NCBI RefSeq assembly: GCF_032854445.1
Contig: NC_088295.1
Coordinates: 3,970,501 to 4,034,500, forward strand
Direction: 5' to 3'
Length of the DNA stretch: 64,000 nucleotides
Source: Liolophura sinensis
Lineage: Eukaryota; Mollusca; Polyplacophora; Chitonida; Chitonidae
In this document: piece after piece, positions 168 through 59,400 of the stretch
How the letters are laid out: each line of letters opens with the position of its first letter
Numbering within the stretch: position 1 is the stretch's first letter
Translations under genes and position numbers: made by a program
Notes under the pieces: generated by a model
Database searches by the model: none
What the model was told of the DNA's origin: nothing
Seen by the model: only the letters and a program-made list of their open reading frames with translations

Positions 168-3100
168 CTCAACTGCTGAAGACTCAGGCAGAACGAGCAG
201 TGAAGAAAGCCGAGGAAGCCAGGCTTAAAGCTGAGGAGGAAGAGAGACGGAGAGAAGAGGAGGAAAAGCAGAGAGAGGAGGAGGAAGAAAAGCACAGACA
301 AGAAGAGGAAAAGCGCAGACAAGATGAGGAGGAACAAAAGCTAAAAGAGGAGAGCAAGGAAGAAGAATATAAAATAGACAATGACCAAGAGACAAATCTA
401 CAAGTACGTGACCAAAAATGTTGCCTGGTATTTGTGAGATATGTTGCATGCGTCTGCCTGAAGACTTGATTTTGATTTTCAATATCTATCAATTTGTCTG
501 CCTTTCTGACCTGTGCTGTTAAGACAAAGTACCAAGTAGTGAAATAAGGAAGCTGAATTTAATGCAGCGTCTAACTGTGTCATTTTTGTGATTGTCACGA
601 AAGCATTTGAAATGATTTGATTGGGAGAATTTCGTTTACATATGCCCCCCATCCGAAAAGGAATGATTTGGATAAATTACAGTACAAGTAATGATGTGAA
701 AGACTTCAACCATAAAAACACTATAATCTGTCTTTTTTTTGTTAGCTAGTAAATTTTAGAATGAGAAAGCTATATATTTTTTTCAATCTAGGAAATGCAG
801 TCATTGGCTAAACACTCTTCACAAACTGCCACAGTTGTGAGTACAACATCTGTGACAAGCCTGACCAATTGTGATGGGGTAATCTCACAGAAGGAGATGT
901 CAGAAACTATGATTGTGACAACGACGCACACCAAGACAACATCTGTGGTTGTCAATTCTAAAAGCTCTGAGAGAACTGACAGCTCAGGGAAGATGGCGAA
1001 CGATCAGCTCACGGACAAACACAATCCCAATAAAAACTGCAATAACACAAATAATCGCCCTGAGGGGGCTGTGCTGTTCAATGTTCAGTCAGTGTTCCCC
1101 AATGCCAAGGCCCAAGTCACAAATAACGTGGATGGGTCAGATGGAGATGGAACTGAGGAAGCGAAGACATGCAGCACGGATGAAAAAAGTGGGGAGACAG
1201 CAAATGCACAGCAAACAGGTTAGTAGCTGGGGATGTAGTAAGTGCACTGCTAACCGGATAGTAGTTGCGGATGAAGCAAGTGCAAGTGCTGCAAACTGCT
1301 TAGTAGCTGGGAATGTAGCAAGTGCGCTGCTAACCGGTTAGTAGCTGGGCATGGAGCAAGTGCACTGCAAACTGGTTAGTAGCTGGGGATGTAGCAAGGA
1401 AGCAAATATACGGATGCACTGATATACAAAAGATATGTGAAAAGTGGGGATGCCTTAATGCGTAACACACAGAAAAAGTAATGCGTGAAGTGAGGCCCAC
1501 AGATACCCATTTTTAGCTCGTGCATGCTGAAATAACCACTTCTTTTTTTCTCTGGATGTAAGCCTTGTAATGTGATGTTACATACTGTACATTTAGAACA
1601 TCCACATTTGCCGTGTCTCTCCTTGCAGGTGAGGCCAGACGGTATGTGACACGCTCCAAGACAGGCTCCCTCACACCAAAGATGTTCACAGACTCTGTGA
1701 CCTCTACAACACAGAGCCTCAAGACGTCTGTGCGGGCAGTCTCCTCCAACAGTGACGAGGTGTTGGTCATCAACAAAGATGGAGATATTACACGGGTGAC
1801 TCGCAGCAAAACTTCCTCACTTAATGTCACACAGTCACAGTATTTCAAACTAGGTATGTTGTCTTCTGGGTAATATGGTACGCTGTTGTATATTATGTAT
1901 GTGAATGCCTAATCACTAGATGGTTTCGGTTTGATTTGTTTGTATGCTTTACTTGCCTTGGATCTAGTGACCTTGGTGGGCCAGACAGTTAAAGTGTGTT
2001 GTTGTTGTGACTGTCAGGCCCTGAACCATGAGGTGGCATGTTGGTGTGTTTATCACAGTTTTCCGACACCCATAAATTGTGCTGATATAAGTGAGAAATT
2101 CTGGAGTAGAGCATTAATCATCAAATAAATATATAAATAAAAGCCTTGATTATGTGTCTTCTTTCATTGTGTGTGCGTGTGTTTTTATTTGTACAGGACA
2201 AGGAAATAATTTCAAGTCCTATCAGAATCAGTATTCCAGCAATACCTTGGCCCTGAACAAGCACCAGCACAACGAGGAACGTGACAAACGACGCTTCCTC
2301 TCCCACAAGTTCAGTCTGACACCCCTGAGTGAGTTCAAATGGAGCGGGTCCATTTATGGCTCCCACGAGCTGATAGTGGCCACTCTGAGGGCCAGCGTTA
2401 TCCAGCTGGAGAACAACATTCCCTCGCCCTTCCTCCATCCTAACTGGCCCATCCACCGCCGCAACTGGCAGAAGGCAGTCCACATGTGTCAGAACCCTCG
2501 GGACTTTGCCCTAGCTCTGGCTATCCTCGAGGCCTGTATGAAGCCCGTCTTGTTAAACCCTGTGTGGACGGAGGCTCTGGGTAAGTCAGTGGATATGTAT
2601 GATTACCTACTTTTATTTTCTGTGTCGTCTTATCCTGTATTTTTTTTTACATAGTTCACTGTTTGATTTGTTCCTAACAAATTCATTGCTGTATTTCCTG
2701 TATCATCTTAGCTTTTGTTTGCTCTGTAGGTCACTGATTATTTCTTACAAAGCTCAGCTTAGAAGTTTGTTTCTGTATTTCTCTGTATTTATTTTATAGG
2801 CCATGTGCGGCTTCAGCGTCTCACATCCATGGACAGAGAGGAGATGAAGAAACGAGAAAAGGAGAGGAGTCGGCGTCGAGATGAAGAGGAAGATCCGAGT
2901 CGCCTCGTTTGGATGAAATACACTCTCGGCCTAAAACATCAGGTTTGTCTGCAGTTCGTTGGAGTCTGCTGTTATCAAACTATTTTCCAGTTGATACAGT
3001 ATTACTCACAGTATGTTTTGAGTAGATGGACAAATGTGGTCCTGTATGCTCCTTTGTTTTACAAGTATTTATGAAATCAACAAATATCTCCTCAGGAAAG

Positions 3101-18451: not shown

Positions 18452-20794
18452 CATTTGGTCCTCCCAGGGAGTTCTTCATTCACTTTTCTTACCATTTACC
18501 CACCCTTCTCATGGAAGCGTCATCAACTGTACAGTTGCAATGAAATGTCATGCAGATTTGATGTTGGTAATTATAAAAATTTGCACAATATTGTTTATAC
18601 AGCTGTTATTTAATGTGTAATTGTGCTGATTTTGTATTGATATGATTAGTTATTGGTCACCTCATGTGCACTGAAGGGCACATCATACTGAAGTATCAGC
18701 TCCCAGTGTGGAATAAGAGTACACAGTGGTCTCCTCCTAACATTAGTTGACATTCAACTTTGTAAATATCTGCATGAACTGTTAACGGAGCCATGAGCTG
18801 TGTGGTCAAACCCCTTGTAGTATTTTCCTTCTTTTTTTTTCTTTTTTTTTTTGGCTTCCTTATTTCCTTGCAGTATGTTCCATGAGATTTTATACACTTT
18901 AGAATCTATGCAATTGTTCCATGTAATATCACTGATGGAGGGTTTTGTGTAGTCGATGTTCAACATCCAAACACTGGCATGGAGCAAATAAACTGATGCT
19001 GATGGCACTTACAAGGCTTAAATGGGTACTTTTACTCCTCTTGGGTTTTGAGATAAATTAAGACTAAATCAACACTGCAAAGATAAACACTATGGTGGAC
19101 TGATTAGACTGTTGTCTGTTGCTGTGATTGGTTTCTTGCCATGGATGCTTATGTTATTTGAGAAAATGGCCTTGCTATCAGACTACAAGAAATTGGCTCT
19201 CATTGTAACACCTGCAATATCACACGAATGACCTGTCCATGACAACTAACCATATCGAATGCACTGAATGCTGCTCTTGAGCTGCGAAAAGGTGGAGGAA
19301 TTAGGGTGAACGTATTCACATCAAATCCATTACAGCTGCCAAATCAAGGTTCATAACGTGACATCCATTACAGCTGCCAATTCAAGGTTCATAACGTGAC
19401 ATCCATTACAGCTGCCAAATCAAGGTTCATAACGTGACATCCATTACAGCTGCCAATTCAAGGTTCATAACGTGACATACAGACTGGACATCCACAAATC
19501 ATGACGGAGATTTCATGACTTATATGACAGTGAAACGAAGCTAATAGCTCTGTGCAATGAGAAATCGTTCTAGGGGATAGTGGCAGATTCACATGTGAAA
19601 TGAAGCTAATAGCTCTGTGCAATGAGAAATCGTTCTAGGGGATAGTGGCAGATTCACGTGATGTACAGCATGTTTCATTAAGTTGTAGTGTCTGAAATTT
19701 TGTACAGATGCCACAGAAAATATTCCTAGTTTAATCAAACTACAATAGAACTCTCCTATACAAGTAGAACACTTGACCTGTGCCCAACAAATGTGGACAT
19801 GAGCAACATGCTCTCGGATCTGCTGCTGATGGTAGGCATACTCTTAGTATCTTAGTACATAAGCAGCAATCTGTTCAGACACAGATATTTAAGTATTGAA
19901 TTGATCTTTAGTCTCTTGGTTCATTAGTTTGTGCTTTGTGTGCACCATCATTTTAAGTGTTAATTTATTTGTGCAGGTAGTTTTACTGGTGTTGAACTCC
20001 CCATCACACGACACACACAGGCATGTCAATCATATTCATTGTTGTAGTTCATAGTTCTCTTCTTTGTTCAGCTCATGTAATAAAGCCTTTCATCTGTACA
20101 TAGCATCTTGGTAAAAGGTTTCTATATTTCACATCACTTTTCCTAGAAAAGGCCAGGAAGGTTGACTGATTTGCTCCAATGGGTACATTGGACTGAATGG
20201 TGTATTTATACATGCACAAGAATTTTAAGACGAGTATGTACTTTCTATTGGTTACATTAGTTGTAAAAAAACAAAAACAATAATAAACCAAGTCAGATAT
20301 AAAGTGAGAGTGTCCTGTTGTTTTTGTTGTTTTTTTTTTTTTCATTAAATACTTTCTTGCACACAATATTTTCAAATAGTTGTAAGCATTACAGAATGAT
20401 GGAGGGCAATGATTAGCACAAAATGTGATTATGTTGATCAATTTTCTACATGCTTTGGTCAAGTCAAGTCTAGATTCGAGTGATTGTCCACTGCCAGTTT
20501 CTTGTAAAAGGCTTTTTCAGTTTTCTGGCCAGTGACATATACTCAAATACTATGTAATGTGGACAAACTGAGGTACTCTGTCAAATCATATTTTGGCCAG
20601 TGCTATGTAATGTGGACAAACTGAGGTACTCTGTCAAATCATATTTTGTCCAGTGCTATGTAATGTGGACAAACTGAGGTACTCTGTCAAATCATATTTT
20701 GGCCAGTGCTATGGAATGTGGACACACTGTAGTCTTGTTTCAAAGTGTCCAATAAAATCATGTTGACGCCACACACGCACACATTGTGAACACC
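18452..20794. other. BPTF 3' UTR and convergent intergenic region
   Basis: No coding exon is visible. An AATAAA signal lies at 18987-18992 and another at 20079-20084; either could end BPTF transcripts. Small tandem repeats occur at 19318-19480 (about 40 bp x4, TCCATTACAGCTGCC), 19540-19665 (two copies of about 65 bp) and 20530-20720 (about 53 bp x3-4, AATGTGGACAAACTGAGG). Homopolymer T runs occur near 18830 and 20330. Confidence 0.7.
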
Positions 20795-21177
20795 CACCTA
20801 AGTCCATGATTGTTCTCTTCTGTTCATGTGAGATTTCCTCCAGGTGGTAACCAGAGGCCTCACACACACTGTGAACATCCAGTGATGTTCATGATTGTTT
20901 CTTCTGTTCATGTGAGATTTCCTCCAGGTGCTAACCAGAGGCCACACACACACTGTGAACATCCAGTGATGTTCATGATTGTTTCTTCTGTTTGTGTGAG
21001 ATTTCCCCCAGCGATGTTCATGATTGTTTCTTCTGTTTGTGTGAGATTTTCTCCAGGTGGTAACTAGAGACTATAAACACACTGTGAACATCCAGCTATA
21101 TTCACCACTGTTCTTTTCTGTTCATGTAGGATTTGTTCTAGAGGCCACACACATATTGTGATCACCCAGCTATATGT
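20795..21177 (-). repeat. Tandem copies of the PIGX terminal-exon coding end
   Basis: About five units of 60-80 bp lie just downstream, on the minus strand, of the PIGX stop codon. Plus-strand units contain TTCATGTGAGATTTCCTCCA and GGTAACCAGAGGCC. These match, with substitutions, the sequence inside PIGX exon 6 that encodes VTIWSKSHMSRRKQS and the stop. The array is thus a duplicated piece of the gene's own last coding segment placed in its 3' flank or UTR. Confidence 0.75.
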
Positions 21178-24100
21178 TCATGACTGTTTTCTTCTGCTCA
21201 TGTGAGATTTGCTCCAGATGGTAACCAAAAGCCACAGACATCCACCACCCGTCACACCCAGGGTTACCACTACGACCATCTGATGATGGCACAGATCACC
21301 GACAGGTACCATTGCAACCAATGCTTTATCAGCCTATAACAGAGATTACAGGTCATGCTGAACAGTTATTATACAATGTTATTATTACTTGGTACACAAC
21401 TGCTGTAAAATGTCTAGTACAAGATCTCATTAAAATGCAGGGTTCGGGAACTCACGATACCAGTCGTCACAAATTTGAACACGTCAAACTGGATATCAGT
21501 CCTACCACTTTCCTAACTTCTACACACTGTTCAGAGGTATCAAGGAGAGTGCTCACCTTAGTGTAGGATAACCTAGACCAAGAGCACTGCGTTGATGTAC
21601 AACTGTTACATGGGGCCTCTATGGAATTTCGATCTGAAAGGCAATCAGAAGAAAATCAAATGATCTACAACATTAACTCACATTACAATGAAAATGAATG
21701 TAGTACAAAATCTAAACTTTTATATCATATGTATCTTATCAGCACAAATGTAACGTATATCACCATATAAATAAATGTGTACCTGACAATCTGGAACACA
21801 TGTATGCCTCATCAAAGTAGAGAGGATAGCCGGGTGATATCCGAGATTAACAGGTAAGGTGATCATGTTTATGAGATTACCTGTATCTGACTGCATGTCA
21901 CAGGTGTAACACAGCTGAGGACTGGCGAACTCCACTTTAGTGGACCTTACTGAGGACAGGTGGGTGATCATGATGAACAGGTAAGGTGATGATTACCTGT
22001 ATCTGACTGCATGTCACAGGTGTTATACAGGTGATGACTGGCAAACTCCACTTTAGTGGACCTTACTGAGGACAGGTGGGTGATCATGATGAACAGGTAA
22101 GGTGATGATTACCTGTATCTGACTGCATGTCACACATGTAACACTACTGAGGACTGGCAAACTCCACTTTAGTGGACCTTACTGAGGACAGGTGGGTGAT
22201 CATGATGAACAGGTAAGGTGATGATTACCTGTATCTGATTGCATGTCACAGGTGTAATACAGGTGATGACTGGCAAAACTCCACTTTAGTGGACCTTACT
22301 GAGGACAGGTGGGTGATCATGACGAACAGGTAAGGTGATGATTACCTGTATCTGACTGCATGTCACAGGTGTTATACAGGTGATGACTGGCAAACTCCAC
22401 TTTAGTGGACCTTACTGAGGACAGGTGGGTGATCATGATGAACAGGTAAGGTGATGATTACCTGTATCTGACTGCATGTCACAGGTGTAATATAGCTGAG
22501 GACTGGCAAACTCCACCTTAACAAAGTGGACCTCCCTATGAGCTGGCGTATGATACCTGAGGTGAACAGGTAAGGTGATGTTCCCACACATCTTGCACAC
22601 ATGTCACATCTTGGTAGACATAAACAAGGTGCTTTTAGACAGGTATTCTGGCTTCTCCAAGTCAATGGCCTCATCAGTGTGTACCTGCAACAGACAGATC
22701 ATAAATGAAAAATGGGATAAGTAGATGGATATTGTGAAAAAGTGAGCAAACTTGTGAAGGAGATAATCTAGTACGTCATGCAGAAATGGGAGGTGGTCAT
22801 GTGGAGGTGAGAGGTGGTCTTGTGTAGGAAAAAGGTAGTCGAGTGGAGGTGAGAAGGAGTTGTATGGACATGAGAGATGGTTGTGTGGACCACGAGAGGT
22901 TGTGCGAAGTTGAGAGGTGGTTGTGTGGATGTGAGGTGACTGTGTGGAGGTGAGAGATGATTATGTGGAGGTGAGTGGTGATTATGTAAATGCAAGAGGA
23001 GATCATGTGGAGGTGAAAGGTGATTGTGAGGAGGTGATTGTATAGAGGTGAGAGGTGATTGTGAGGAGGTAAGAGGTGATTGTGTGGAGGTGAATGCTGA
23101 ATGTGTGGAGGTGAGAGATGATTATGTGGCGGTGAGTGGTGATTATGTAAATGCAAGAGGTGATTATGTGGAGGTGAAAGGTGATTGTGAGGAGGTGATT
23201 GTATAGAGGTGAGAGGTGATTGTGAGGAGGTAAGAGGTGATTGTGTGGAGGTGAGTGCTGAATGTATGGAGATGAGAGATGATTATGTGGAGGGGAGAGG
23301 TAATGTATGTGTTCAATTATAGTGAATGGGTGGAGGAGAAAAAATTAGACGTGAAGTGGACTTCACATTACTAAATGTCTGACGCAGATAGATTAATGTG
23401 TGGAGAAAAGTTGTTATTACTTAAAGAGACAGGTGAGACAGTTGAGTCTAGTGTTACATACTCCAGGTCCACCAACTCTGACAACTGTCTGATCTGATAG
23501 ATATCAATGTAGCTACTAGCAGGCAGACTCTCAGCCAACATCAGTTTACAATTCTTCATCAGCCCAGACGTAAATTCCACAGTCACCTCTGTGTGGAGAT
23601 CTCTGAAACAAGACAATGGCATTAACATACTCAAAGTTTACGCCTACATGCATCTTGGTCAAGGCATTTCAACAAGACATTTGACTCTCAAACAATAATG
23701 GACAATATCAAGTGCACTGAGGCTTATCATATTTATTTACTACATTTGCTGTTTCAATGCTATACTTTCTTCACCCATACCATGACAGTTTTTTGTGGAG
23801 GAAACCTGAGTGCCTGTGGTAAACCAACAAATGTTTCCACGTGTGACCTAAGTTTATGGCTCTATTTATTCGATTGTTGTTATTGAGTGTCATACCCGAG
23901 AATGTGACCTACAGGCTTGCATATATTGGTGGAGGACAACTGGTCTTCAAGTGAATCTAAAACTGTGGCGATGGCTCTAAGAAAACTGTTAACTGGTTAT
24001 TATTACTCAGGCCACAAGCACAATGGGAGCTTAGGCATATGTACACATAGCATTTACTGGTATTAGCTCTATAGACTTATTGTACAGCTATATAGGTACT

Positions 24101-24551: not shown

Positions 24552-24841
24552 CTCGGATGGAAATGGAATGTAAGTGATGAACAAGTGTTCACATGCTTTC
24601 CACGAGAAAGACTGTCAGAAAGAAATGCTTAACAAATTCAAATAAGCTTATGACATCTTGCTCGACATCGGCTTCTATGGCAGTTAGGCGATGTGATCAT
24701 GCTGCGAACACATGGTTTCGTCCAATCACATTCATCTCCAAGCGTTTCTGCTCGGCTGTCATGTTTTGAGACTTGACTACTTCCTGTTACAGCGGGCGAT
24801 GTGACAGAGGAGCTGGTTTGCTTTGCAAAATTATCCCAAGG
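24552..24841. promoter_or_regulatory. Divergent promoter region, PIGX (-) / CHMP6 (+)
   Basis: Only 290 bp separate the chosen PIGX and CHMP6 start codons, and both 5' UTRs must lie inside. A CCAAT motif (GTCCAATCAC near 24720) and an ETS-like ACTTCCTGTT (near 24778) are visible. No TATA box is evident. The bidirectional promoter role is inferred from the head-to-head arrangement. Confidence 0.6.
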
Positions 24842-27800: not shown

Positions 27801-30800
27801 AGGATTAGAGGGGTGAAGTACATGTATACGTTGTACTAATATCCTGGTTGTATAAGGTGAAGTACATGTATACGTAGTACTAATATCCTGATTGTATAAG
27901 GTGAAGTACATGTATACGTAGTACTAATATCCTGGTTGTATAAGGTGAAGTCCCCCGGGCAGTGCCCGGTTTCCACCCACCATAATGCTGGCTGCCGTAG
28001 TATAAGTAAAATATTCTTGAGTACGGCATAAAACACCAATCAAATAAATAAATAAATATAAGGTGAAGTACATGTACACATACTATTATCCTGGTTGTAT
28101 AAGGTGAAGTACATGTACGCGTAGTACTAATATCCTGGTTGTAGAAGGTGAAGTACATGTACACACAGTACTAATGCCCTGGTTGTATGTGGTGAAGTAC
28201 GTGAAAGTCTGTTGATTTGAGAGCAGACATTAAATCTTGAATATTTACTTCATGCTTGTTGCAGCTAATGTCGCTGGAAGACGTGGAGAAGATCATGGAT
28301 GAAACTCGGGATGCTGTGGCTTACCAAGAGGTATGCTGTCTGTAAACCTATTACCCATTGGATATCATGAATATTCCTCCTGTGAGGATATCATGAATAT
28401 TCCTCCTGTGAGGATATCATGAATATTCCTCCTGTGAGGATATCATGAATATTCCTCCTGTGAGGATATCATGATTATTCCTGCTGTGTGGATGTCATAA
28501 TTATTCCTCATGTCTGAATATCATAATTATTCCTCATGTGAGGATATAATGATTGTTCCTCCTGTAAGGATATCATGATTATTCCTCATGTCTAGATATC
28601 ATAATTATTTCTCATGTCTGGATATCATAATTATTCCTCCTGTGATTATATCATGATTATTCCTCCTGTGTGGATATCATGACTATTCCCCCTTAGTGGA
28701 TATCATGATTATTCCTGCTGTGTGGATGTCATAATTATTCCTCGTGTGGATGTCATGATTGTTCCTTATTTCTGGATGTCATGATTATTTCTCATGTCAG
28801 GATATCATGATTATTCCTCTTGTGTGGATATCATAATTATTCCCCCTTAGTGGATTTCATGATTATTCCTCCTGTCAGGATATCCTGACTATTCGTCACA
28901 TGTAGTTATCATGATTATTCCTTGTGTGGATATCATGATTATTCCTCATGTCTGGATATCATGATTATTCTTCATGCGAGGCTATCATGATTGTTCCTCC
29001 TGTGAGGATATCATAATTATTCCTCATGTGAGGATATCATGATTGTTCCTCCTGTGAGGATATCATGATTATTCCTCATGTCTAGATATCATAATTATTC
29101 CTCATGTGAGGATATCATGATTGTTCCTCATGTGAGGATATCATGATTGTTCCTCCTGTGAGGATATCATGATTATTCCTCATGTCTGGATGTCATAATT
29201 ATTCCTCATGTCTGGATATCATGATTATTCCTCATGTGAGGATATCATGATTCTTCCTCCTGTGAGGATATCATGATTATTCCTCATGTCTGGATGTCAT
29301 AATTATGCTTCTTCAGGTATAAGATCAGGTGGGTATTTCTGTTGGTATATGTTACTGAGGAACTGTGTGATTGTACTGCCAATAGTCTGATACAAGTATT
29401 AGTGATCACTGTGTGACATGTTGACCCTTGGTCTGTGAACAGGAAATTGATGCTCTATTGGCGGGAGGGCTGACACAGGAGGATGAAGATGAGGTCCTGG
29501 CTGAGCTGGAGGCTATCACAAAGGTTTGTCAATACAAAGAAAACCTCAGAGATAAAATAGGTTTACTTTCAGGAATTTTAAAGTCTAAGAATGATATTTT
29601 ATCATGCTGCACATTTTCAATAACAAATAATCAGCTTTTCCTGTAGTCTAGCCTATTGAAGTACTAGGGCCTCTTGTATAGACTGTAGGCTAAATTGATG
29701 GTAACTACCATGGTAACATGTTTTCACATATGCCACCATCATAGTAACAATCAACTTGACCTACACTTTTGCCTTGTGAAAGCGGCCCCTGGCAGATATC
29801 AAATTTGTGCCTTTGCGCTAGTTTAAAGAAATCATTTGACCCAATGTACATATGCATGGGTAAAATACACCACCAGAAGTTTAAAAAGCATAACTTCTGT
29901 TTTTGTGATATAGCATGACAGAGAAATCACGGTTCAAAGTAAGCAAAATTGCTTATAAAGCCCCTCCATTTTATCAGTTTTAACAAATCAGACACAAGTT
30001 ATTTCTAAAACGCACCTTGAGGACGTTTCTGCTCACATACCCCAAACCCTGTTTTTGCATTTAATCATTTGACTGTGGAGTACAAGTGACTCTGGCATGG
30101 CTCATCCCACAGCCTTGTAAAAATTCTTCATTGAAAGTTGATTTACAGAATTCCCATCCTCTTCACAAAAAAGCCTGTGACCGTTTAGGTCTGTTTCCAC
30201 CCCTTTTCCGAAATAGCTTTAAGTTATATTATTTGTTGTCTTTTCTTTTAACAGTTGTTTTCCTCTACAGGTTAACTAGCCTGGTGAGGTCTATGAAATG
30301 TACACAAGAGATTACCAAGAAATGAAGCATATTGAGCTTTAGGGTAAATCTGTATCTCTGAGGTTTCAGCTTCAGGTTAAGCTGTGAGGTGTGAGATAAT
30401 ACAATGGCTGTGTTCATCTTCTCTTCCACTTTCTACAGGTGGAGTTATTGAGCTTTAGGGTAAATCTGTATCTCTGAGGTTTCAGCTTCAGGTTAAGCTG
30501 TGAGGTGTGAGGTAATACAATGGCTGTGTTCATCTTCTCTTCCACTTTCTACAGGTGGAGTTATTGAGTTTTAGGGTAAATCTGTATCTCTGAGGTTTCA
30601 GCTTCAGGTTAAGGTGTGAGGTAATACAATGGCTGTGTTCATCTTCTCTTCCACTTTCTACAGGTGGAGTTATTGAGTTTTAGGGTAAATCTGTATCCCT
30701 GAGGTTTCAGCTTCAGGTTAAGGTGTGAGGTAATACAATGGCTGTGTTCATCTTCTCTTCCACTTTCTACAGGTGGAGTTACCTAATGTTCCAGAAGACA

Positions 30801-33610: not shown

Positions 33611-36600
33611 ATGGCTCCAAAACAGGTGAAAGCCGCGAAGGTATTGTAGTTTGTCATACTATTTTAACATGTACAACATGCTTTTCATGAATTTATTTGC
33701 CTATCAGGTCATTAATGTTCGTGTAAATTGGATTTTCATGTGCATATGGTGCAGAATGTACCGTGGTATTAAATAGACCACGTGCATCGTGCTGGGCGAA
33801 ATGGCATGTGGTCTAAGAAATCTTTTTCAGTTATGCTGTTTCTACCTTGTCTGGTTGACTCATACGCTAGCATGCATACCAGTTTCAACAAAGATGAGCT
33901 ATAGAGCAAAAACTGTCTTCCTAGAGACTTTTGAAGTACATATACCTTTACAGTGAATGTAAATTAAGAAAATTAGAGCTTGTCTTAATTTAGCCAGTAA
34001 TCTCAAATAACAATATTTTTAAGATGCCTGATGTAGAATGAGTGTATATCAAAATCTTGCCTATATTCTAGCAACGTTTGTTTAGTAAATCACAGTTGTG
34101 GAAAGTAAATTTAGGGTTTAGCTTGCATTGTGCTTCACTTTTCAGGCTGGGAAGAAGCAAAAGGTGAAGAAAGCGCCTCCCAAGAAGGTTGTGCAGGAGG
34201 CATCAGAGGAGAGCTCTGATGAGGACTCTGAGGTAATTATGCTCTGGTGTGGGGACTAAATAGAGTTCCATGCTGATGGGAGGACAGCTACGGATAATCC
34301 AAACACCAGGAGGTTTAGAAATACATGAATATGCCATATTCCTTGCTGGTCAACCTCTGATCCCAGCCATTCCGTATGTGAACAGATTGAGTGCGAATGG
34401 TTACGTCACAAATCTCTAGCTGGTCACATGGATATCGGCAAAATTGTCTAATGACAGCCTCAGCGAATCTGAATTGTCTAATATCTTGTATGGAGGTCAG
34501 GTTGTTAAATACATAGAGCAGAGCATTTAATGATGGATTACTAATTGTAGGAAAGTATGGCAGTTGTAAAATATAGGTTGATGCTTTTATCAGAGACTGA
34601 GCCCCTTCTCGGATATTCATTTTGTGAATCTGGTTTGTCAGTGACAGCAAGCTGAGCTTAAAATCTCATGAAATAGTAGAGCCCCTCTATCAGTCATTTA
34701 TTGGATGATGGATTAGCTATACAAACCCAAAATACACTAGGCTTGGCGGGCGTATTACTTTAACCAAAGATACTTGAGTTTCCTACTGGCATAAAAATAT
34801 CCAAATAGCATCAATATTCAGAACCTGTTTGATCCTTGATGGGTGGTTTACGACAGTGTTTGCAGTGTTTTAAACGCTGGAATGTAGATTTCACTTTGAA
34901 ATGATTGTTTATTAGGAGGAAGAGATAGAAACTCCAGTGGTGAAGAAAAAGGCCAAACCAGTGGTCCGGGCTAAAGAAGAGGATAGCGACGATAGTAGTG
35001 AGGAAGACAGTGATGAGGAAGGTAGGGAGACCACACGGATTCACGGATGTTGTACAGAATGTCATTTAGTTACGAAAATTGGTCGTAAGTGGGACAGTCC
35101 ACCAGCAACCTACGGATGGTCGTGATTTTCCTCCCACCACAATGCTGACCACTGTCGTATATGTGAAATATTCTTGTATGGTTTAAAACTCCAGTCAAAT
35201 AAATAATTCACGAAGATTAAATTTGACCTGAAGATTTGTGTCCCAGATTCCTTGCGTTGCTAGACAAGGTACTATCTTCTTCCACAGAGGAAACTCCTCC
35301 AATAAATGGTGCTAAGGCAAAATTAAGTGAAAAACAGAATGGAAAGACTGAGGAAAACGATGATGAGGATGATGAGGATGACGATGATGACGATGAGGAT
35401 GACGATGATGAAGAAGAGGAGGAGGAAGGTACAAAAGCTGCTAATAATGTTTGTGATACTGTCACCAAGAAGAGGAATGTATGAAAGTTGTTATTAATGT
35501 TTGTGGTACTGTCATCAAGAAGAGGAAGGTGTGAAAGGTGTTAATGTTTGTGATACTGTCATCAAGAAGAGGAAGGTATGAAAGGTGTTAATGTTTGTGA
35601 TGCTGTCATCAAGAAGAGGAATGTATGAAAGGTGTTAATGTTTGTGATGCTGTCATCAAGAAGAGGAATGTATGGAAGGTGTTAATAATGGTTGTGGTAC
35701 TGTCATCAAGAAGAGGAAGGTATGAAGGCTGTTACTAATGTTTGTGGTACTGTCATCAAGAAGAGGAAGGTATGAAGGCTGTTACTAATGTTCGTGGTAC
35801 TGTCATTGAAAAATTCATTTTTTCAAGAAGTGATAATTGCTTTTATCTGTTGTCAAATTGGCCATGAAAAAGATCTAAGTAACCATTAGGCCCTTGATAC
35901 TTTTCAGTCTCTGTTTGACTCTCCTACCTGGAGTGTTGAACGTTGGTATGTTTTCACTGAGTTGCCCTTTGAGTTTTAAGCTATGGTTCAGTTTTTAAGA
36001 AACTATGGCCATTGTAGATGAAGAAATATATCATGCAGATTTATAGTTTTTTTTAGAATGTATTTTCTGAACCATTATTGTCCTGTTTTGAAACTGGCTA
36101 AGAACGTAATACATCTGTTTGTACACTAGAAGAAGCCCCACCTCCAAAAGCCAAGCCACAGAAAAGGAAGGACAAGCCTGCAGCCAAACCCAAGCAGCAG
36201 GCCATGGAGGTTGAAGGTAAACATTTGAATATACTGCAGATAGCATTTACTACAGTATAGCATTTCTTGTCTTGTACTCATCCCCTCTTTAAGTTAATGA
36301 CGCTTGTTAGATCAGTAAAAAGATAGACAGAACATGATGCGTGGATGTTGTTTGTTTGAGTACCGTAAACAAATTTTATGTTTTGCAGAAGATGAAGACG
36401 ATGATGAAGAGGATAGTGAAGAGGAGGAAGATGACAGTGATAGTGAAGAAGAGGCTGTTAGCAACAACCAGGGAAAACGGAAGAAGGGACAAGCTGACAA
36501 ACCATCTAAGAAGGCAAAAACTGATACTGGTGAGTCCACAGTTTTTGTACATCAATTTAGGACAGGACATTTGTAAAAGTTGGGGTTAAGACATATCAAA

Positions 36601-42847: not shown

Positions 42848-43356
42848 AGAAGAGTATCTTCCATCCCAACTTACAACTGCATTTTAACTGTATATAATTA
42901 GTCAACCGTCACTTGTAAATTTCTCATATTTTGTACATTTTATCATGTGTTGGCATTGTCCTGACTGGGGACAATGCAGATCCATTGTTAAAGCTGTAGC
43001 AGAAGTGCTCAATGGGTTTGTTGTTGTGGTAGTGTTACCATTGTTGTTGTGGTAGTGTTACCATGGTGGACATGATTAATTAAATCCATTGGTCTTCTGG
43101 TGGATGCATACTACAAATCCTGTGTATAACTGTGTGGAATTTGCTCTTTGATCAAGACTCTTCTCAAAATATGAATTTGTCATGTCAGCTTCAAGCTTTG
43201 GCTAATACTGTATCTTTGAATGTTGGAATGATATTTGTTATCTGCTGTGAAATGACAAACTGCACAAAAGAGTATTTGGGAAAGTTTTCTGGGAGTGTCA
43301 ATCATTCCTGCAAATGGATTTTATTAATGTGTATGCAATTTTTGTGAAATACATAT

Positions 43357-43362
43357 AATAAA
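43357..43362 (+). terminator. Nucleolin polyadenylation signal
   Basis: AATAAA lies 510 bp after the nucleolin TGA and is followed by a T/G-rich stretch (TTCCTTGTTTGTGATTTTC), which fits a cleavage signal. Confidence 0.65.
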
Positions 43363-44375: not shown

Positions 44376-44407
44376 TTTATTATTAGAGGTTAAAGCTTGT
44401 TTTGTGG

Positions 44408-47400
44408 TCAGGATTCTTCTGTGCTCTCCATGACAACTGTGGGAAGTTGGACAGCTGGATGATTCAGCAAGGCATACACAGCTCGGTACAGAGGTATAGC
44501 ACTGGGGAAAAACAAAGAGAATAAAGTGTAGCAAGGTTGACCCCAAACCAGTCTTGGAGCACACTCAGCTTATAAACCTGATGCAGTTACAAATGTATCT
44601 GCTCGTCTAAGCTGTCAGTACAGCAGATAGCTTTGAGCGTGACGTTTTGAACATCTCTGCCCCACACAGCTACAGAAATAACGAATCAACATTGTTACTT
44701 AAATAATTCAACCGACAAAAAGTAAGGATCTCTCTCTCCACGACAGATCATTCGAATCTTGACACTGCTCAGTTGAAAGACACCTGCTTTTCTGATACGA
44801 GTAAAAAGTTGTGAGTTCAAGTCCAGCTCATGCTGGCTTCCTCTCTGGCCGTACGTGAGAAGGTTTGGCAGCAACCTGTGGATGGTTGTGGGTTTCCCCG
44901 GGCTCTACCCGGTTTCCACCCACAATAATGCTGGTCGCTGTCATATAAATGAAATATTCTTGAGTACGGTGTAAAACACCAATCAAAAATGTAAATAAAA
45001 AGTTATGTAATGTATGTTAGCCAATAAGCCCGACACATGAGAAACGTTGTCCAATGCCAAGCCTTGTATGTTAGCCAATAAGCCCTACACATGAGAAACG
45101 TTGTCCAATGCCAAGCCTTGCATGTTAGCCAATAGGCCCTACACATGAGAAACGCTGTCCAATGCCAAGCCTTGCATGTTAGCCAATAAGCCCTACACAT
45201 GAGAAACGCTGTCCAATGCCAAGCCTTGCATGTTAGCCAATAAGCCCTACACATGAGAAACGCTGTCCAATGCCAAGCCTTGTATGTGAGCCAATAGGCC
45301 CTACACATGAGAAAGGTTGTCCAATGCCAAGCCTTGTATGTTAGCCAATAAGCCCTACGCATGAGAAACGTTGTCCAATGCCAAGCCTTGTATGTTAGCC
45401 AATAAGCCCTACGCATGAGAAACGTTGTCCAATGCCAAGCCTTGTATGTTAGCCAATAAGCCCTACGCATGAGAAACGTTGTCCAATGCCAAGCCTTGTA
45501 TGTTAGCCAATAGGCCCTACGCATGAGAAACGTCCAATGCCAAGCCTTGTATGTTAGCCAATAAGCCCTACGCATGAGAAACGTTGTCCAATGCCAAGCC
45601 TTGTATGTTAGCCAATAAGCCCTACACATGAGAAAGGTTGTCCAATGCCAAGCCTTGTATGTTAGCCAATAGGCCCTACACATTAGAAAGGTTGTCCAAT
45701 GCCAAGCCTTGTATGTTAGCCAATAAGCCCTACACATGAGAAAGGTTGTCCAATGCCAAGCCTTGTATGTTAGCCAATAAGCCCTACACATGAGAAAGGT
45801 TGTCCAATTCCAAGCCTTGTATGTTAGCCAATAAGCCCTACACATGAGAAAGGTTGTCCAATGCCAAGCCTTGTATGTTAGCCAATAAGCCCTACACATG
45901 AGAAACGTTGTCCAATGCCAAGCCTTGTATGTTAGCCAATAAGCCCTACACATGAGAAAGGTTGTCCAATGCCAAGCCTTGTATGTTAGCCAATAAGCCC
46001 TACACATGAGAAAGGTTGTCCAATGCCAAGCCTTGTATGTTAGCCAATAAGCCCTACACATGAGAAAGGTTGTCCAACGACAAGCCTTGTATTTCCAACA
46101 TTCCAACAATTTCAACTTCTTAAGCAATACCTGGCCACCGTAACTCAGTAGCTCACCATAAGCTGCTTTTATCCGGCCAGGGAGACAGACACGCTGGTGT
46201 ACCTGACCAGAAACTGACTCCAGGCTGCTGTTATCTAGCCAGGTAGACACAGACATGATGATGTACTGGACTGATCTGTCATCACCAGTAAATGACTCTA
46301 GGTTGCTCTTATCTAACCAGGTAGACACAGACATGATACTGTACTTGACTGGTCTGTCATCACCAGTAAATGACTCCAGTTTGCTCTTATCTAACCAGGT
46401 AGACACAGACATGATACTGTACTTGACTGATCTGTCATCACCAGTAAATGACTCCAGGCTGCTGTTATCTAGCCAGGTAGACACAGACATGATACTGTAC
46501 TTGACTGGTCTGTCATCGCCAGTAAATGACTCCAGCATGCTCTTATCTAGCCAGGTAGACACAGACATGATGATGTACTTGACTGGTTTGTCATCACCAG
46601 TAAATGACTCCAGGCTGCTGTTATCTAGCCAGGTAGACACAGACATGATACTGTACTTGACTGGTCTGTCATCGCCAGTAAATGACTCCAGCATGCTCTT
46701 ATCTAGCCAGGTAGACACAGACATGATGATGTACTTGACTGGTTTGTCATCACCAGTAAATGACTCCAGGCTGCTGTTATCTAGCCAGGTAGACACAGAC
46801 ATGATGCTGTACTTGACTGGTCTGTCATCACCAGTAAATGACTCCAGTTTGCTCTTATCTAGCCAGGTAGACACAGACATGATGCTGTACTTGACTGGTC
46901 TGTCATCACCAGTAAATGACTCCAGTTTGCTCTTATCTAGCCAGGTAGACAGACATGACGCTGTACCTGACTGGTCTGTCGTCACCAGTAAATGACTCCA
47001 GTTTGCTCTTATCTAGCCAGGTAGACACAGACATGATCATGTGCCTGTCTGGTCTGTCATCACTAGTAACTGATGACAGGTTGCCCTTATCTCGCCAACT
47101 AGACACATACATGATGCTTTTACCTGTCTGGTCTGTCATCATCAGTAACTGATGACAGGCTACTCTTATCTAGTCAGGTAGACACAGACACAGTAGTGTA
47201 CCTGTCATGACCAGTAACTGACTCCAGGTTGTTCTTATTTAGCCAGGTAGACTCAGACACGATGGTGTACCTGACTGGTCTGTCATCACCAGTAACTGAT
47301 GAAAGGCTACTCTTATCTAGTCAGGTAGACACAGACACAGTAGTGTACCTGTCATGACCAGTAACTGACTCCAGGTTGTTCTTATTTAGCCAGGTAGACT

Positions 47401-50400
47401 CAGACACGATGGTGTACCTGACTGGTCTGTCATCACCAGTAACTGATGAAAGGCTACTCTTATCTAGCCAGGTAGACACAGACATGATGATGGTGTACCT
47501 TTCTGGTCTGTCATCACCAGTAACTGATGACAGGCTACTCTTATCTAGCCAGGTAGACAAAGACATGATGATGTACCTGTCTGGTGTTTCGCTTGCTGTT
47601 TGCTCCAGTTCTGGTAAGATGAACTCCAGCACTTGAGAGACAACGGTCTTCTGTATGTTTAACAGTTTGATGGAATGCTGGAGTTTGATGTACTTGAGTA
47701 GGTCCCTCTCTTTCCTGTAGTCAAAGCTTTCATCTGCTGAACCTGGAACAGACAGTACAGGACGAGAAGACAAACTTCACTTGCTCTAACCCAGATCACA
47801 GACTATTTGCTAGTGTTTGCAGAGTTTTAGTTAATATGATGTGAAAATATTTGTAAAGCCATCCTTAACAACAAGTTGGCTTCTCGTAGCCTGACCTTAT
47901 CTAATTCACTGGCAGTAAAACCAATTCGAACACATGATTATACATGTATGTTTACAGCCAACTTAACCCTTTGCATGCCACTTGAAATTTTATGAGCCAA
48001 AATCAAGAGATAGGATTGTTGTAAGGAAGTAGCAGTATCACTGGGGAGTGATCAGTTCATTCCTGAAGATACCTGTTTAGCTTTAAGTCTTTGTTCTTCT
48101 TCACCAGGCACTGGGCACATATGGACAAGCCCCACACCAGTGTGTTACAATTACCATATTCCCCACATAAAACACTCAATGGAAACACACAAATAAACAA
48201 ACATAAATAAGTTGAGCTGACCAAATGCAACTCTGGCCATTAGACAAAGTATCACCCTGATTCACACATTAGTTAGACGGGTCACATAAAGGTTTGCTCA
48301 CCTGCATCCCCTAACAGAGTTGACCACACCTGACAGATGTCTGCTCACAGATATCTGGGTCATTGTTGGCCATACCTCAACATCAACAACACCAATTTAC
48401 TCACCTGTATCTCCTTACAGTAAGGCGTCACATTGGTATCCCAGGCTGACAGGTAAATCTACAGTCTGCTCACAGATATCTGGGTCATTGTTGGCCATAC
48501 CTCAACATCCACAACACCAATTTGCTCACCTGTATCTCCTGACAGCAGGGCGTCACACCGGTATCCCAGGCTGACAGGTAAATCTACAGTCTGCTCACAG
48601 ATATCTGGGTCATTATTCATCACACCTTAACATCAACAACACCAGGTTGCTCACCTGTATCTAATGACAACAAGGCGTCACACCGGTATCCCAGGCTGAC
48701 AGGTAAATCTACAGTCTGCTCACAGGTATCTGGGTCATTATTCATCACACCTTAACATCAACAACACCAGGTTGCTCACCTGTATCTCCTTACAGTAAGG
48801 CGTCACATTGGTATCCCAGGCTGACAGGTAAATCTACAGTCTGCTCACAGATATCTGGGTCATTGTTGGCCATACCTCAACATCAACAACACCAATTTGC
48901 TCACCTGTATCTCCTGACAGCAGGGCGTCACACCGGTATCCCAGGCTGACAGGTAAATCTACAGTCTGCTCACAGATATCTGGGTCATTATTCATCACAC
49001 CTTAACATCAACAACACCAGGTTGCTCACCTGTATCTCCTTACAGTAAGGCGTCACATTGGTATCCCAGGCTGACAGGTAAATCTACAGTCTGCTCACAG
49101 ATATCTGGGTCATTGTTGGCCATACCTCAACATCAACAACACCAATTTGCTCACCTGTATCTCCTGACAGCAGGGCGTCACACCGGTATCCCAGGCTGAC
49201 AGGTAAATCTACAGTCTGCTCACAGATATCTGGGTCATTATTCATCACACCTTAACATCAACAACACCAGGTTGCTCACCTGTATCTAATGACAACAAGG
49301 CGTCACACCAGTATCCCAGGCTGACAGGTAAATCTACAGTCTGCTCACAGGTATCTGGGTCATTATTCATCACACCTTAACATCAACAACACCAGGTTGC
49401 TCACCTGTATCTCCTTACAGTAAGGCGTCACATTGGTATCCCAGGCTGACAGGTAAATCTACAGTCTGCTCACAGATATCTGGGTCATTGTTGGCCATAC
49501 CTCAACATCAACAACACCAATTTGCTCACCTGTATCTCCTGACAGCAGGGCGTCACACCGGTATCCCAGGCTGACAGGTAAATCTACAGTCTGCTCACAG
49601 ATATCTGGGTCATTATTCATCACACCTTAACATCAACAACACCAGGTTGCTCACCTGTATCTAATGACAACAAGGCGTCACACCAGTATCCCAGGCTGAC
49701 AGGTAAATCTACAGTCTGCTCACAGGTATCTGGGTCATTATTCATCACACCTTAACATCAACAACACCAGGTTGCTCACCTGTATCTCCTGACAGCAGGG
49801 CGTCACACCGGTATCCCAGGCTGACAGGTAAATCTACAGTCTGCTCACAGATATCTGGGTCATTATTCACCACACCTTAACATCAACAACACCAGGTTGC
49901 TCACCTGTATCTAATGACAACAAGGCGTCACACCGGTATCCCAGGCTGACAGGTAAATCTACAGTCTGCTCACAGATATTTGGGTCATCATTCATCACAT
50001 CTTAGCATCAACAACACCAGGTTGCTCACCTGTATCTCCTGACAACAAGGTGTCACACCGGTATCCCAGGCTGACAGGTAAATCTACAGTCTGCTCACAG
50101 ATACCTGGGTCATTATTCATCACACCTTACCATCAACAACACCAATTTGCTCACCTGTATCTCCTGACAACAAGGCGTCACACTGGTATCCCAGGCTGAC
50201 AGGTAAATCTACAGTCTGCTCAGATATCTGGGTCATCATTCATCACATCTTAGCATCAACAACACCAGGTTGCTCACCTGTATCTCCTGACAACAAGGTG
50301 TCACACCGGTATCCCAGGCTGACAGGTAAATCTACAGTCTGCTCACAGATATCTGGATCATTATTCATCACACCTTAACATCAACAACACCAGGTTGCTC

Positions 50401-53400
50401 ACCTGTATCTAATGACAACAAGGCATCACACCAGTATCCCAGGCTGACAGGTAAATCTACAGTCTGCTCACAGATATCTGGGTCATTATTCACCAAACCT
50501 TAACATCAACAACACCAGGTTGCTCACCTGTATCTCCTGACAACAAGGCGTCATATCGGTATCCCAGGCTGACAGGTAAATCTACAGTCTGCTCACAGGT
50601 ATCTGGGTCATTATTCATCACACCTTAACATCAACAACACCAGGTTGCTCACCTGTATCTCCTGACAACAAGGCGTCACACCGGTATCCCAGGCTGACAG
50701 GTAAATCTACAGTCTGCTCACAGATATCTGGGTCATTATTCACCACACTTTAACATCAACAACACCAGGTTGCTCACCTGTATCTCCTGACAACAAGGCA
50801 TCACACCGGTATCCCAGGCTGACAGGTAAATCTACAGTCTGCTCACAGATATCTGGGTCATTATTCATCACACCTTAACATCAACAACACCAGTTTGCTC
50901 ACCTGTATCTCCTGACAACAAGGCATCACACAAGTATCCCAGGCTGACAGGTAAATCTACAGTCTGCTCACAGATATCTGGGTCATTATTCATCACACCT
51001 TAACATCAACAACACCAGGTTGCTCACCTGTATCTAATGACAACAAGGCGTCACACCAGTATCCCAGGCTGACAGGTAAATCTACAGTCTGCTCACAGAT
51101 ATCTGGGTCATTATTCATTTCACCTTAACATCAACAACACCAGGTTGCTCACCTCTATCTAATGACAACAAGGCGTCACACTGGTATCCCAGGCTGACAG
51201 GTAAATCTACAGTCTGCTCACAGATATCTGGGTCATTATTCATCACACCTTAACATCAACAACACCAGGTTGCTCACCTGTATCTCCTGACAACAAGGCG
51301 TCACACTGGTATCCCAGGCTGACAGGTAAATCTACAGTCTGCTCACAGATATCTGGTTCATTATTCATCACACCTTAACATCAACAACACCAATTTGCTC
51401 ACCTGTATCTCCTGACAACAAGGCGTCATATCGGTATCCCAGGCTGACAGGTAAATCTACAGTCTGCTCACAGATATCTGGGTCATTATTCATCACACCT
51501 TAACATCAACAACACCAGGTTGCTCACCTGTATCTAATGACAACAAGGCGTCACACTGGTATCCCAGGCTGACAGGTAAATCTACAGTCTGCTCACAGGT
51601 ATCTGGGTCATTATTCATCACACCTTAACATCAACAACACCGGGTTGCTCACCTGTATCTCCTGACAACAAGGCGTCATATCGGTATCCCAGGCTGACAG
51701 GTAAATCTACAGTCTGCTCACAGATATCTGGGTCATTATTCATCACACCTTAACATCAACAACACCAGGTTGCTCACCTGTATCTAATGACAACAAGGCG
51801 TCACACTGGTATCCCAGGCTGACAGGTAAATCTACAGTCTGCTCACAGGTATCTGGGTCATTATTCATCACACCTTAACATCAACAACACCAGGTTGCTC
51901 ACCTGTATCTCCTGACAACAAGGCGTCATATCGGTATCCCAGGCTGACAGGTAAATCTACAGTCTGCTCACAGATATCTGGGTCATTATTCACCACACCT
52001 TAACATCAACAACACCAGTTTGCTCACCTGTATCTAATGACAACAAGGCATCACACCGGTATCCCAGGCTGACAGGTAAATCTACAGTCTGCTCACAGAT
52101 ATCTGGGTCATTGTTGGCCACACCTAAACATCAATAACAGCAGTCAAATGAACTATACCTCTTAAAATTAAAACAATACTTCTAATCATGTGTACCAAGA
52201 ACTTCAACACCAAGGGAAGCTGCTTCTTATTACAGGCTGACTGAAATACTGTAGCTTCTTTTCCATTAGGCACATGTGTGTTATGAGAAAACAAGGTAAG
52301 GAAATCCATCGTCTGACACACATGTAATGATTTCAGGTGTGTGTTTTCATTCAGCCCTCAAGCGACTGTTTCCAGTGGTGCCTCAGTATGCACAAGCACA
52401 GCAAGGCATATGTGGGATAAACAAGATACATGTGGGATAAACAAGGCATATGTGGGATAAACAAAAGCCCATGGACAGTTATGCCCATGATACAACAACC
52501 AACCTTGGCGACAACCCAAGAGTCAGCTCTGTTCTAATTTTTTTTTTACATGCTTTTTAAAAATTTTTAACTTGATGCATGTATGCTCTAGCCTATGTTA
52601 TGTCTCAAGTTTTACAAAGACTCCTATAATATACAGGAAACTAGCTGAATTGTTTGTGACAGCTAATGAGTTAAACTAGCCCCACAGATGTGTTTGTTTC
52701 CTTCAGCACCTAAATCTCAGTCATGCCCACTGGGAACAGCTATCCAGCTTATGGGAAGATGTCCGTCACCCACCTTGAGCCAGCAGCGTTACCTCTGCCC
52801 CAGCCTCCCTGTTGGTCATTAGGATCATCTCCAGCACCATTTTCTTTCTCAGTATATCTCTGTGCGACAGAGCAGCTATAAACAGATAGACAATTAAACT
52901 TATATATAACAACATTTGTAACAAATATAACAATATAAATAGTACAAAAACTCAACCAAAAAAAAAATTGTTACCCCAGTTATGTTTACCTAACTCATGT
53001 ATTAGACTCTGCTATATTTGCAACAAAGATGTGTTAACCTGAGCTGTGTTTACCATATATGCTTTTCTTTATCTCTCTCCTCTTTTTCTTTCATGTAATT
53101 CCCAGCCATGTTGGCCTGACATATAGTTATGTCCCAGCTAAGCTGACCGGACGTATGGTCAGTTACTAATTACTTGCATGTTTGCGTGATCTGTGGTCAT
53201 CTCCCAGCTTTGTATGGCTCACACATTGTCATGTGCCATCTACAACTGTATGCTTCAAGTACGTGGTTACCTGATAGCTGGTTAAGTTCCAGCTGGTCCA
53301 GTTGTTTTAGAAGACTCCGATGAAGATACAATTGCCTATTCACAGCTTCCCCAAGCTGCACTTTTTCTTCAATTTCTACCTAGAGAAGTTGAACACGTGA

Positions 53401-56400: not shown

Positions 56401-59400
56401 GTTTCCTCTGTTGAGACCTTAAAGAATACATGAGAAGGAACTATAAAACAAAGATTATTTTTCTATGCTAAATGAACAAAATTATGCCCCAGAATTTTTG
56501 TTAAAAAAATTTCACTTTGGGGGTATTTTTATTCCTGTTAATTATCCCTCTATATTATGCATATTTTCCATCAATGGTCGGATTTTTTCAGAAATTATGT
56601 AACTGTTGATCTTGCTCGTAACTTGGTGAAAACCCTGAAGTGCCCCGAGCCCGGTGAACTGTGTCGCTACAGTGCGCGGGAAAGGGGACATGTACGCAGA
56701 TACTGCATGGCTTCTTGACTGCCGAGGCCTTAAGAAAACTGTACTTTGATGAAACTTTTACCCCCCCACCCCCCCAGGTCAAAGTTGAAAAATTTGTTGG
56801 TACTGTTATATGTTATTACACATGATAATCTGCACATTAAGAAATAAAACCATAGCGTTTCATGTATCATTTTAAGTGAAAGAAAAAGAAAAAAGGGGAA
56901 AAGGAAATATTCTGTACGTCATAAAAAAAACCACCTCACATGAACTACCTAACTACTAACCAGTACCACTAGTGACTACAGGGTCCATATTTGCAAAACG
57001 TTGTAAATAATATTCACGTAAATCGTGACACCAATAATCAGAATCCAGAAGTCATTTGCCAAAAAGGCTATGAGAAAAGTGATTTGTGAGGTTTGTAGAA
57101 AGTGACCTCGAGGTGTATGTCTTCTAACCTTGGAGTGTTTGTTCCGTGTTTTCTAACCTTGGGGTGTTTGTTCCGTGTCTTCTAGCCTTGGAGCGTTTGT
57201 TCTGTGTCTTCTAGCCTTGGAGCGTTTGTTCCGTGTATTCTAACCTTGGAGTGTTTGTTCCGTGTTTTCTAAACTTTCAGTGTTTGTTTCGTGTTTTCTA
57301 ACCTTTGAGTGTTTCTTCCGTGTCTTCTAACCTTGGAGTGTTTGTTCCGTGTCTTCTAATCTTGGAGTGTTTCTTCCGTGTTTTCTAACCTTGGAGTGTT
57401 TGTTCTGTGTCTTCTAACCTTGGAGTGTTTGTTCCGTGTTTTCTAACCTTGGAGTGTTTCTTCCATGTTTTCTAACCTTGGAGTGTTTGTTCCATGTCTT
57501 CTACCCATGGAGTGTTTGTTCCGTGTCTTCTAACCTTGGAGTGTTTGTTCCGTGTTTTCTAGCCTTGGAGTGTTTGTCCCGTGTCTTCTAACCTTGGAGT
57601 GTTTCTTTCGTGTCTTCTAACCTTGGAATGTTTGTTCCGTGTCTTCTAACCTTGGAGTGTTTGTTCCGTGTTTTCTAACCTTGGAGTGTTTGTTCCGTGT
57701 CTTCTAACCTTGGAGTGTTTGTTCCGTGTCTTCTAACCTTGCAGTGTTTGTTCCGTGTTTTCTAGCCTTTGAGAGTTTGTTCCGTGTCTTCTAACCTTGG
57801 AGTGTTTCTTCCGTGTCTTCTAACCTTGGAGTGTTTCTTCCGTGTCTTCTAACCTTGGAGTGTTTCTTTCGTGTTTTCTAACCTTGGAGTGTTTGTTCCA
57901 TGTCTTCTAACCTTGGAGTGTTTGTTCCGTGTCTTCTAACCTTGGAGTGTTTCTTCTGTGTCTCCTAACCTTGGAGTGTTTGTTCCATGTCTTCTAACCT
58001 TGGAGTGTTTCTTCCATGTTTTCTAACCTTGGAATGTTTGTTCCATGTTTTCTAACCTTGGAGTGTTTGTTCCATGTCTTCTAACCTTGGACTGTTTGTT
58101 CCTTGTCTTCTAACCTTGGAGTGTTTCTTCTGTGTCTTCTAACCTTGGAGTGTTTGTTCCGTGTCTTCTAACCTTGGAGTGTTTGTTCCGTGTCTTCTAA
58201 CCTTGGAGTGTTTGTTCCATGTTTTCTAACCTTGGAGTGTTTGTTCCGTGTTTTCTAACCTTGGAGTGTTTGTTCCATGTTTTCTAACCTTGGAATGTCT
58301 GTTCCATGTTTTCTAACCTTGGAGTGTTTGTTCCATGTCTTCTACCCATGGAGTGTTTGTTCCGTGTCTTCTAACCTTGGAGTGTTTGTTCCGTGTTTTC
58401 TAGCCTTGGAGTGTTTGTCCCGTGTCTTCTAACCTTGGAGTGTTTCTTTCGTGTCTTCTAACCTTGGAATGTTTGTTCCGTGTCTTCTAACCTTGGAGTG
58501 TTTGTTCCGTGTTTTCTAGCCTTGGAGTGTTTGTCCCGTGTCTTCTAACCTTGGAGTGTTTCTTTCGTGTCTTCTAACCTTGGAATGTTTGTTCCGTGTC
58601 TTCTAACCTTGGAGTGTTTGTTCCGTGTTTTCTAACCTTGGAGTGTTTGTTCCATGTCTTCTAACCTTGGAGTGTTTCTTCCGTGTCTTCTAACCTTGGA
58701 GTGTTTCTTCTGTGTCTCCTAACCTTGGAGTGTTTGTTCCATGTCTTCTAACCTTGGAGTGTTTCTTCCATGTTTTCTAACCTTGGAATGTTTGTTCCAT
58801 GTTTTCTAACCTTGGAGTGTTTGTTCCATGTCTTCTAACCTTGGAGTGTTTGTTCCATGTCTTCTAACCTTGGAGTGTTTGTTCCGTGTCTTCTAACCTT
58901 GGAGTGTTTGTTCCGTGTCTTCTAACCTTGGAGTGTTTGTTCCATGTTTTCTAACCTTGGAGTGTTTGTTCCGTGTTTTCTAACCTTGGAGTGTTTGTTC
59001 CATGTTTTCTAACCTTGGAATGTCTGTTCCATGTTTTCTAACCTTGGAGTGTTTGTTCCATGTCTTCTACCCATGGAGTGTTTGTTCCATGTCTTCTAAC
59101 CTTGGAGTGTTTGTTCCGTGTTTTCTAGCCTTGGAGTGTTTGTCCCGTGTCTTCTAACCTTGGAGTGTTTCTTTCGTGTCTTCTAACCTTGGAATGTTTG
59201 TTCCATGTCTTCTAACCTTGGAGTGTTTGTTCCGTGTTTTCTAACCTTGGAGTGTTTGTTCCATGTTTTCTAACCTTGGAGTGTTTGTTCCGTGTTTTCT
59301 AACCTTGGAGTGTTTGTTCCATGTTTTCTAACCTTGGAATGTCTGTTCCATGTCTTCTCAGCTTTGGCCAGGACATTATCGATCAGCTTCAACTCCTTCT

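Follow-up and report, generated by a model that had tools for sequence, protein, structure and literature searches.

In the window analysed here, a 64,000-bp stretch of the genome of the chiton Liolophura sinensis (assembly GCF_032854445.1, contig NC_088295.1, positions 3,970,501 to 4,034,500), all five multi-exon genes (BPTF, PIGX, CHMP6, nucleolin and TEDC2) carry a tandem array with a genuine exon-intron junction in its end unit. These arrays, found in a mollusc, show every tested feature of the "mirages" known from amphioxus genes. Across 33 sampled gene regions, arrays contained junctions about three times as often as random placement would predict and with a bias toward donors; we regard both the excess and the bias as tentative. 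We favor an account in which the arrays are locally born minisatellites, each founded by a duplication with random breakpoints that happened to include a junction, and are tolerated in a minisatellite-prone chiton genome; the probability that we assign to it is roughly 0.68.

Junction arrays in the window

A sequence-only reading of the window had reported arrays at exon boundaries in all five genes, and this observation proved largely real and partly confirmed. Arrays were delineated with Tandem Repeats Finder (TRF), run on the window and the sampled regions. Five donors and one acceptor named in that reading lie within the end units of arrays, and a further end unit contains a whole TEDC2 exon (Table 1). 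Two other reported sites fared less well. At PIGX 21178, the coding end with its stop codon (21178-21180) is recopied downstream when judged by eye, but the edge of the TRF array falls short of the exon. At TEDC2 48302 the array is real, but the site is the far end of the array whose first unit holds the exon. With the array omitted, the open frame is preserved in seven of seven cases (the six junctions and TEDC2 52028 to 47742).

Table 1. Tandem arrays at exon ends in the window, with the junctions that they contain (exon in capitals, intron in lower case)
Array	Positions	Strand	Repeat	Exon or junction included	Basis
BPTF	1199..1398	+	38-bp unit, ~5 copies	opens with the last 20 bp of exon 792-1218; donor ACAG|gttagt at 1218	TRF + flank reading
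PIGX 3'	20774..21056	-	84- and 45-bp units, downstream of last coding exon		TRF
PIGX intron	21875..22520	-	116-bp unit, 5.6 copies	donor ACAG|gtaatc at 22462; exon part recopied 59 bp	TRF + flank reading
CHMP6	30330..30781	+	109-bp unit, 4 copies	acceptor ttctacag|GTGGAG at 30773; exon part recopied 9 bp	TRF + flank reading
Nucleolin	35422..35806	+	50-bp unit, 7.9 copies	donor GAAG|gtacaa at 35428	TRF + flank reading
TEDC2	46206..47585	-	78-bp unit, ~18 copies	donor ACAG|gtacat at 47577	TRF + flank reading
TEDC2	48339..52143	-	125-bp unit, 30.5 copies	first unit holds entire in-frame exon 52028-52123 (96 nt) and both its splice sites	TRF + flank reading
TEDC2	57118..59358	-	29-bp unit, 77 copies	donor CAAG|gttaga at 59333	TRF + flank reading

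The 96-nt TEDC2 exon, whose length is a multiple of three, is present together with its donor in about 30 copies, and inclusion of such copies would preserve frame length.

In total, the window contains 28 merged TRF arrays of at least 60 bp. The only exon-internal arrays seen there are low-complexity coding stretches, located at 233, at 35349 and at 41863, and these were set apart from the count. Expected numbers were obtained from a founder null, in which a TRF array with units of length p can extend into an exon by no more than roughly p. Under this null, donor-spanning arrays number 5 versus 1.59 expected (P=0.018) and acceptor-spanning arrays 1 versus 1.55, with an exon list that is partly hand-made and has some rough ends, and with the whole-exon array excluded. 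Because the window was selected for the pattern, these counts are not a test of enrichment.

Junction contact in sampled genes

Enrichment was assessed in 33 gene regions (283,627 bp) picked from Pfam match tables, the CCT and myosin loci before their sequence was seen. They comprise 9 of 11 CCT loci (PF00118; two with long uninterrupted matches were excluded), 11 of 20 myosin loci (PF00063; two of the 11 are partial) and 13 of 18 kinesin clusters, defined by four or more exon matches in a 10-kb span, for which the prediction was fixed in advance; the other five clusters were left out for length. A recount gave 6 of 11 for the four-exon kinesin clusters. Calling junctions from match ends, splice scores and phase yielded 113 donors and 118 acceptors, and left 49 donor and 44 acceptor ends uncalled among 162 exon matches.

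The pooled sample contains 111 arrays, and 13 of them include a junction versus 4.30 expected (P=2.5e-4). Donors account for 9 (2.21 expected, P=3e-4) and acceptors for 4 (2.19 expected, P=0.18); this 9:4 split is not significant in itself (one-sided binomial, 0.13). In the CCT and myosin regions, which hold 87 arrays, 8 span donors versus 1.38 expected (P=5.2e-5) and 2 span acceptors versus 1.41 (P=0.41). Since arrays lengthen introns, each was also collapsed to one unit, and the excess persisted under this more lenient null (13 versus 5.16, P=0.0012). Junction arrays are not clearly different from other arrays (13 versus 62) in period, copy number, identity or length (all p>0.1).

A second test dispensed with TRF. 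A 24-base window at each junction was scored as positive if a near copy lay within 500 bases on just one side of it, and every intronic window clear of known exons served as a control. A downstream-only copy was found for 9 of 113 donors versus 2.02 expected (P=2.1e-4) and an upstream copy for none, whereas an upstream-only copy was found for 3 of 118 acceptors versus 2.29 expected (P=0.40). Three other settings gave 8 or 9 donors, with P from 1.8e-4 to 7.5e-4. Among the counted cases, the single-called acceptor in region L035 is doubtful, since it has copies on both sides in this test. In L005, an acceptor array at the first exon was seen by eye but left uncounted, as were donor-derived arrays in regions L028+L029 and L026+L027. 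This L005 array and another in L011 are listed at uncalled acceptor ends, and none is listed at an uncalled donor end.

Arrays of at least 60 bp are present in 14 of the 66 confidently paired introns. Four of the 66 (one in L025, two in L042 and one in L036) consist of array over about 83-90% of their length.

Founding and persistence of the arrays

Counted arrays overlap the exon by at most about one unit, and the null permits no more. All nine donors with copies have them solely on the intron side. Among acceptors, five have copies, which are restricted to the intron side in three, restricted to the exon side in one and present on both sides in one. The sequence-only reading placed the start of each array at the junction, which is inaccurate: in 14 donor arrays, 5 of them in the window and 9 in the sampled regions, the position of the junction within the unit is uniform (Kolmogorov-Smirnov p=0.94). 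A duplication breakpoint at the junction itself is accordingly unsupported. Together with array periods, which span 29-140 bp for junction arrays and are spread over all classes modulo 3, this uniformity indicates that the breakpoints of the founding duplications are seemingly random.

In the 12 donor arrays that have enough copies, the exon-attached copy resembles the others as closely as they resemble one another, and its similarity is lower in 3 of the 12 (p=0.37). Across the same 12 arrays, similarity to the exon copy shows no general gradient with distance (mean rho -0.08; 8 negative, one significant). Recurrent recopying from the exon is therefore unsupported in general, and the suggestion that some process copies DNA outward from splice sites finds little support. 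With an exon copy that is not distinct and no general gradient, the simplest explanation is one founding event followed by ordinary minisatellite turnover.

The arrays do not form one mobile family, as the sequence-only reading had recognized. Comparison of 111 array units gave 12 related pairs, of which the only one between loci is a 17-bp match and the other 11 are within a locus, and genome searches with the CHMP6 and PIGX units found matches confined to their own arrays. Three related arrays lie in region L028+L029 (at 9248, 9804 and 10654 in gene orientation). By eye, the donor motif GGCAACAT|GTGAGTAT of the exon immediately upstream can be recognized in units of the first array, and the three are perhaps one donor array that has since split.

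We suggest that a single tandem duplication with random breakpoints would by chance take in an exon-intron junction, and that the array would then expand through ordinary slippage or unequal exchange. Tolerance would be expected because the copy attached to the exon provides the right in-frame splice site and the remaining copies sit within the intron. The exon-attached site is probably the one spliced, a choice that could be made through co-transcriptional or exon-defined recognition. The excess at junctions would then result from this tolerance combined with a somewhat higher rate of founding close to 5' splice sites.

Several results weigh against this account. The kinesin regions alone (24 arrays) show no excess, either in the array count (donors 1 versus 0.83, P=0.57; acceptors 2 versus 0.78, P=0.18) or in the TRF-free test (1 versus 0.82). 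The claim that junctions are contacted more often than under random placement thus held in the pooled sample of 33 regions but not in its kinesin part. Junctions with two-sided support are in excess (7 versus 2.82, P=0.02) and have no donor bias (4 donors versus 1.46, 3 acceptors versus 1.43). Among single-called junctions there are 5 donors versus 0.75 expected (P=9e-4) and 1 acceptor versus 0.76, and the donor surplus therefore rests on single-called donors; all five, when inspected in sequence, are plausible donors. Furthermore, two acceptors have an exon-side copy, and in the 77-copy TEDC2 array similarity drops the farther a copy lies from the exon (rho -0.31, p=0.006). Splice sites were assigned from the DNA sequence. 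Finally, a pure tolerance filter would account for the few acceptor arrays, not for the donor excess over free introns.

That donor excess, in the CCT and myosin regions and in the pooled sample, is what would be expected if 5' splice sites were mutational hotspots, tied to transcription or splicing through pausing, R-loops or nicks, at which minisatellites are founded preferentially at exon ends. Array edges are also dense 25-150 bp downstream of donors (11 in 14.1 kb, versus 0.30 per kb overall), compared with 5 in 14.8 kb upstream of acceptors. However, edges thin out at 150-300 bp (1 in 16.0 kb) and are again dense at 300-500 bp (9 in 17.1 kb), non-spanning arrays show no skew within the 66 confidently paired introns (5' half 11, 3' half 8), the kinesin set lacks a donor excess, and junctions with two-sided support do not separate donors from acceptors. 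Similarly, donor motifs in the 46 non-junction arrays favor the sense over the antisense strand at 4 bits (8 versus 3) and 5 bits (6 versus 2), yet this lean is not significant (Wilcoxon p=0.30), with 10 versus 6 at 3 bits and 1 versus 2 at 6 bits. A hotspot of this kind seems to us unlikely, at about one chance in five. Slightly less likely still is its broader form, in which a transcription- or splicing-coupled lesion makes 5' splice sites a hotspot for tandem-repeat birth in two or more distant animal lineages, chiton and amphioxus among them, and a main route of intron growth there.

There might also be no excess to explain, if an array-rich genome, in which a local repeat of some kind is present in about 21% of intronic control windows, yields contacts by chance and the eye then selects them. 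The kinesin set at expectation, acceptors not significantly above it and a window chosen for its pattern all fit this possibility; the pooled Pfam-chosen sample, which exceeds expectation even under the lenient null, speaks against it and makes it improbable.

The sequence-only reading had also proposed selection for decoy or redundant splice sites, and its interpretation as a whole is partly supported. In 13 donor arrays, the extra copies retain G in 151 of 155 and T in 143 of 155 copy cells. GT is slightly better retained than the unit mean (Wilcoxon p=0.03), but the whole donor 9-mer is not (p=0.41); the mean percentile of GT within its unit is 0.57, and it is low in BPTF (0.07) and in the 77-copy TEDC2 array (0.24). 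Neither decoy selection nor purging is strongly indicated in these extra donors, and since a good donor motif is also absent from most non-junction arrays (on the sense strand, 4 bits are reached by 8 of 46), retention of extra sites as decoys or spares is very improbable.

Known systems, gene models and other observations

In the amphioxus papers (PMC3087553, PMC3902484), mirages are minisatellite-like tandem duplications that cross the boundary between exon and intron, at either the 5' or the 3' end, with units of tens to about 160 bp and with many extra copies that retain AG/GT signals. They affect Adh3, the globins BflGb6 and BflGb9, troponin C and PGBD5, the last two added by PMC3902484. 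Like mirages, the chiton units cross the exon-intron boundary, occur at both 5' and 3' boundaries (donors, and acceptors such as that of CHMP6), are of minisatellite length and, apart from the one short match, unrelated between loci, and their extra copies often retain splice signals. The chiton arrays differ in belonging to a mollusc, in reaching 77 copies and in having been counted against a placement null. Haplotype differences and reverse-transcription PCR were presented for amphioxus, whereas the chiton arrays are known from the sequence of one assembly.

A literature search, to which most subscription papers were inaccessible and which is thus no proof of absence, found no report of mirages outside lancelets. 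The main text of the Liolophura japonica genome paper (PMC11068029) has no word beginning with tandem, satellite or intron, and in a chiton-genomes paper (PMC12005716) the passages on tandem, satellite and intron hold nothing of the mirage kind. In Rogers-type intron gain, as described in PMC4974935, a new intron arises from a duplicated exon segment. The chiton arrays resemble it in that tandem duplication copies splice signals, but their units also contain intron sequence, and the intron therefore probably pre-existed. Introner-like elements are dispersed repeat families that carry splice sites and fill introns. Chiton repeats do both, but their units are private to one locus (two searched genome-wide, 111 intercompared).

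If mirages are common in chitons and lancelets, they would be a recurrent outcome of minisatellite-prone genomes rather than a cephalochordate oddity. They offer a natural experiment on donor choice by the spliceosome where as many as 77 near-identical donors are present. They are also a source from which introns can grow and perhaps be born. As about 8% of sampled donors (9 of 113) carry a junction array, published genome and transcriptome data permit direct tests.

Pfam searches identified PIG-X in PIGX (E 9.4e-10), PHD and bromodomain in BPTF (one BPTF exon that was tried had no match above the cut-off), Snf7 in CHMP6 (E 1.8e-4, under the curated cut-off) and RRM in nucleolin (one exon over the cut-off and another just under it). 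Three TEDC2 exons that were tried gave no match above the cut-off, and that name is therefore taken from the sequence-only reading. A home-made gene finder recovered the BPTF, nucleolin and 59333 TEDC2 donors and the 96-nt TEDC2 exon. It read through the TEDC2 donor at 47577, missed PIGX and placed false mini-exons in the CHMP6 copies, and models made by hand were used instead.

A dispersed, short interspersed element-like repeat occupies 35081-35206 of the window and has at least 42 other matches in the genome at 79-85% identity; by eye, similar stretches lie near 31040, 44900 and 59650. Elsewhere in the assembly, contig C99 holds seven tandem matches to mitochondrial cox1 (one of them shorter) at a spacing of about 15.5 kb, in addition to a separate mitochondrial contig of 15,209 bp (C632). 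The series is either a nuclear copy or a concatemer that the assembly retained. In C632, the nad4 and nad5 frames (read by eye) are opposite in strand to cox1-cox3 (cox1 by Pfam), an arrangement consistent with a chiton. In region L014+L015, two tandem myosin exons (5396-5500 and 6492-6587) match the same Pfam positions (118/121-152) and are perhaps mutually exclusive.

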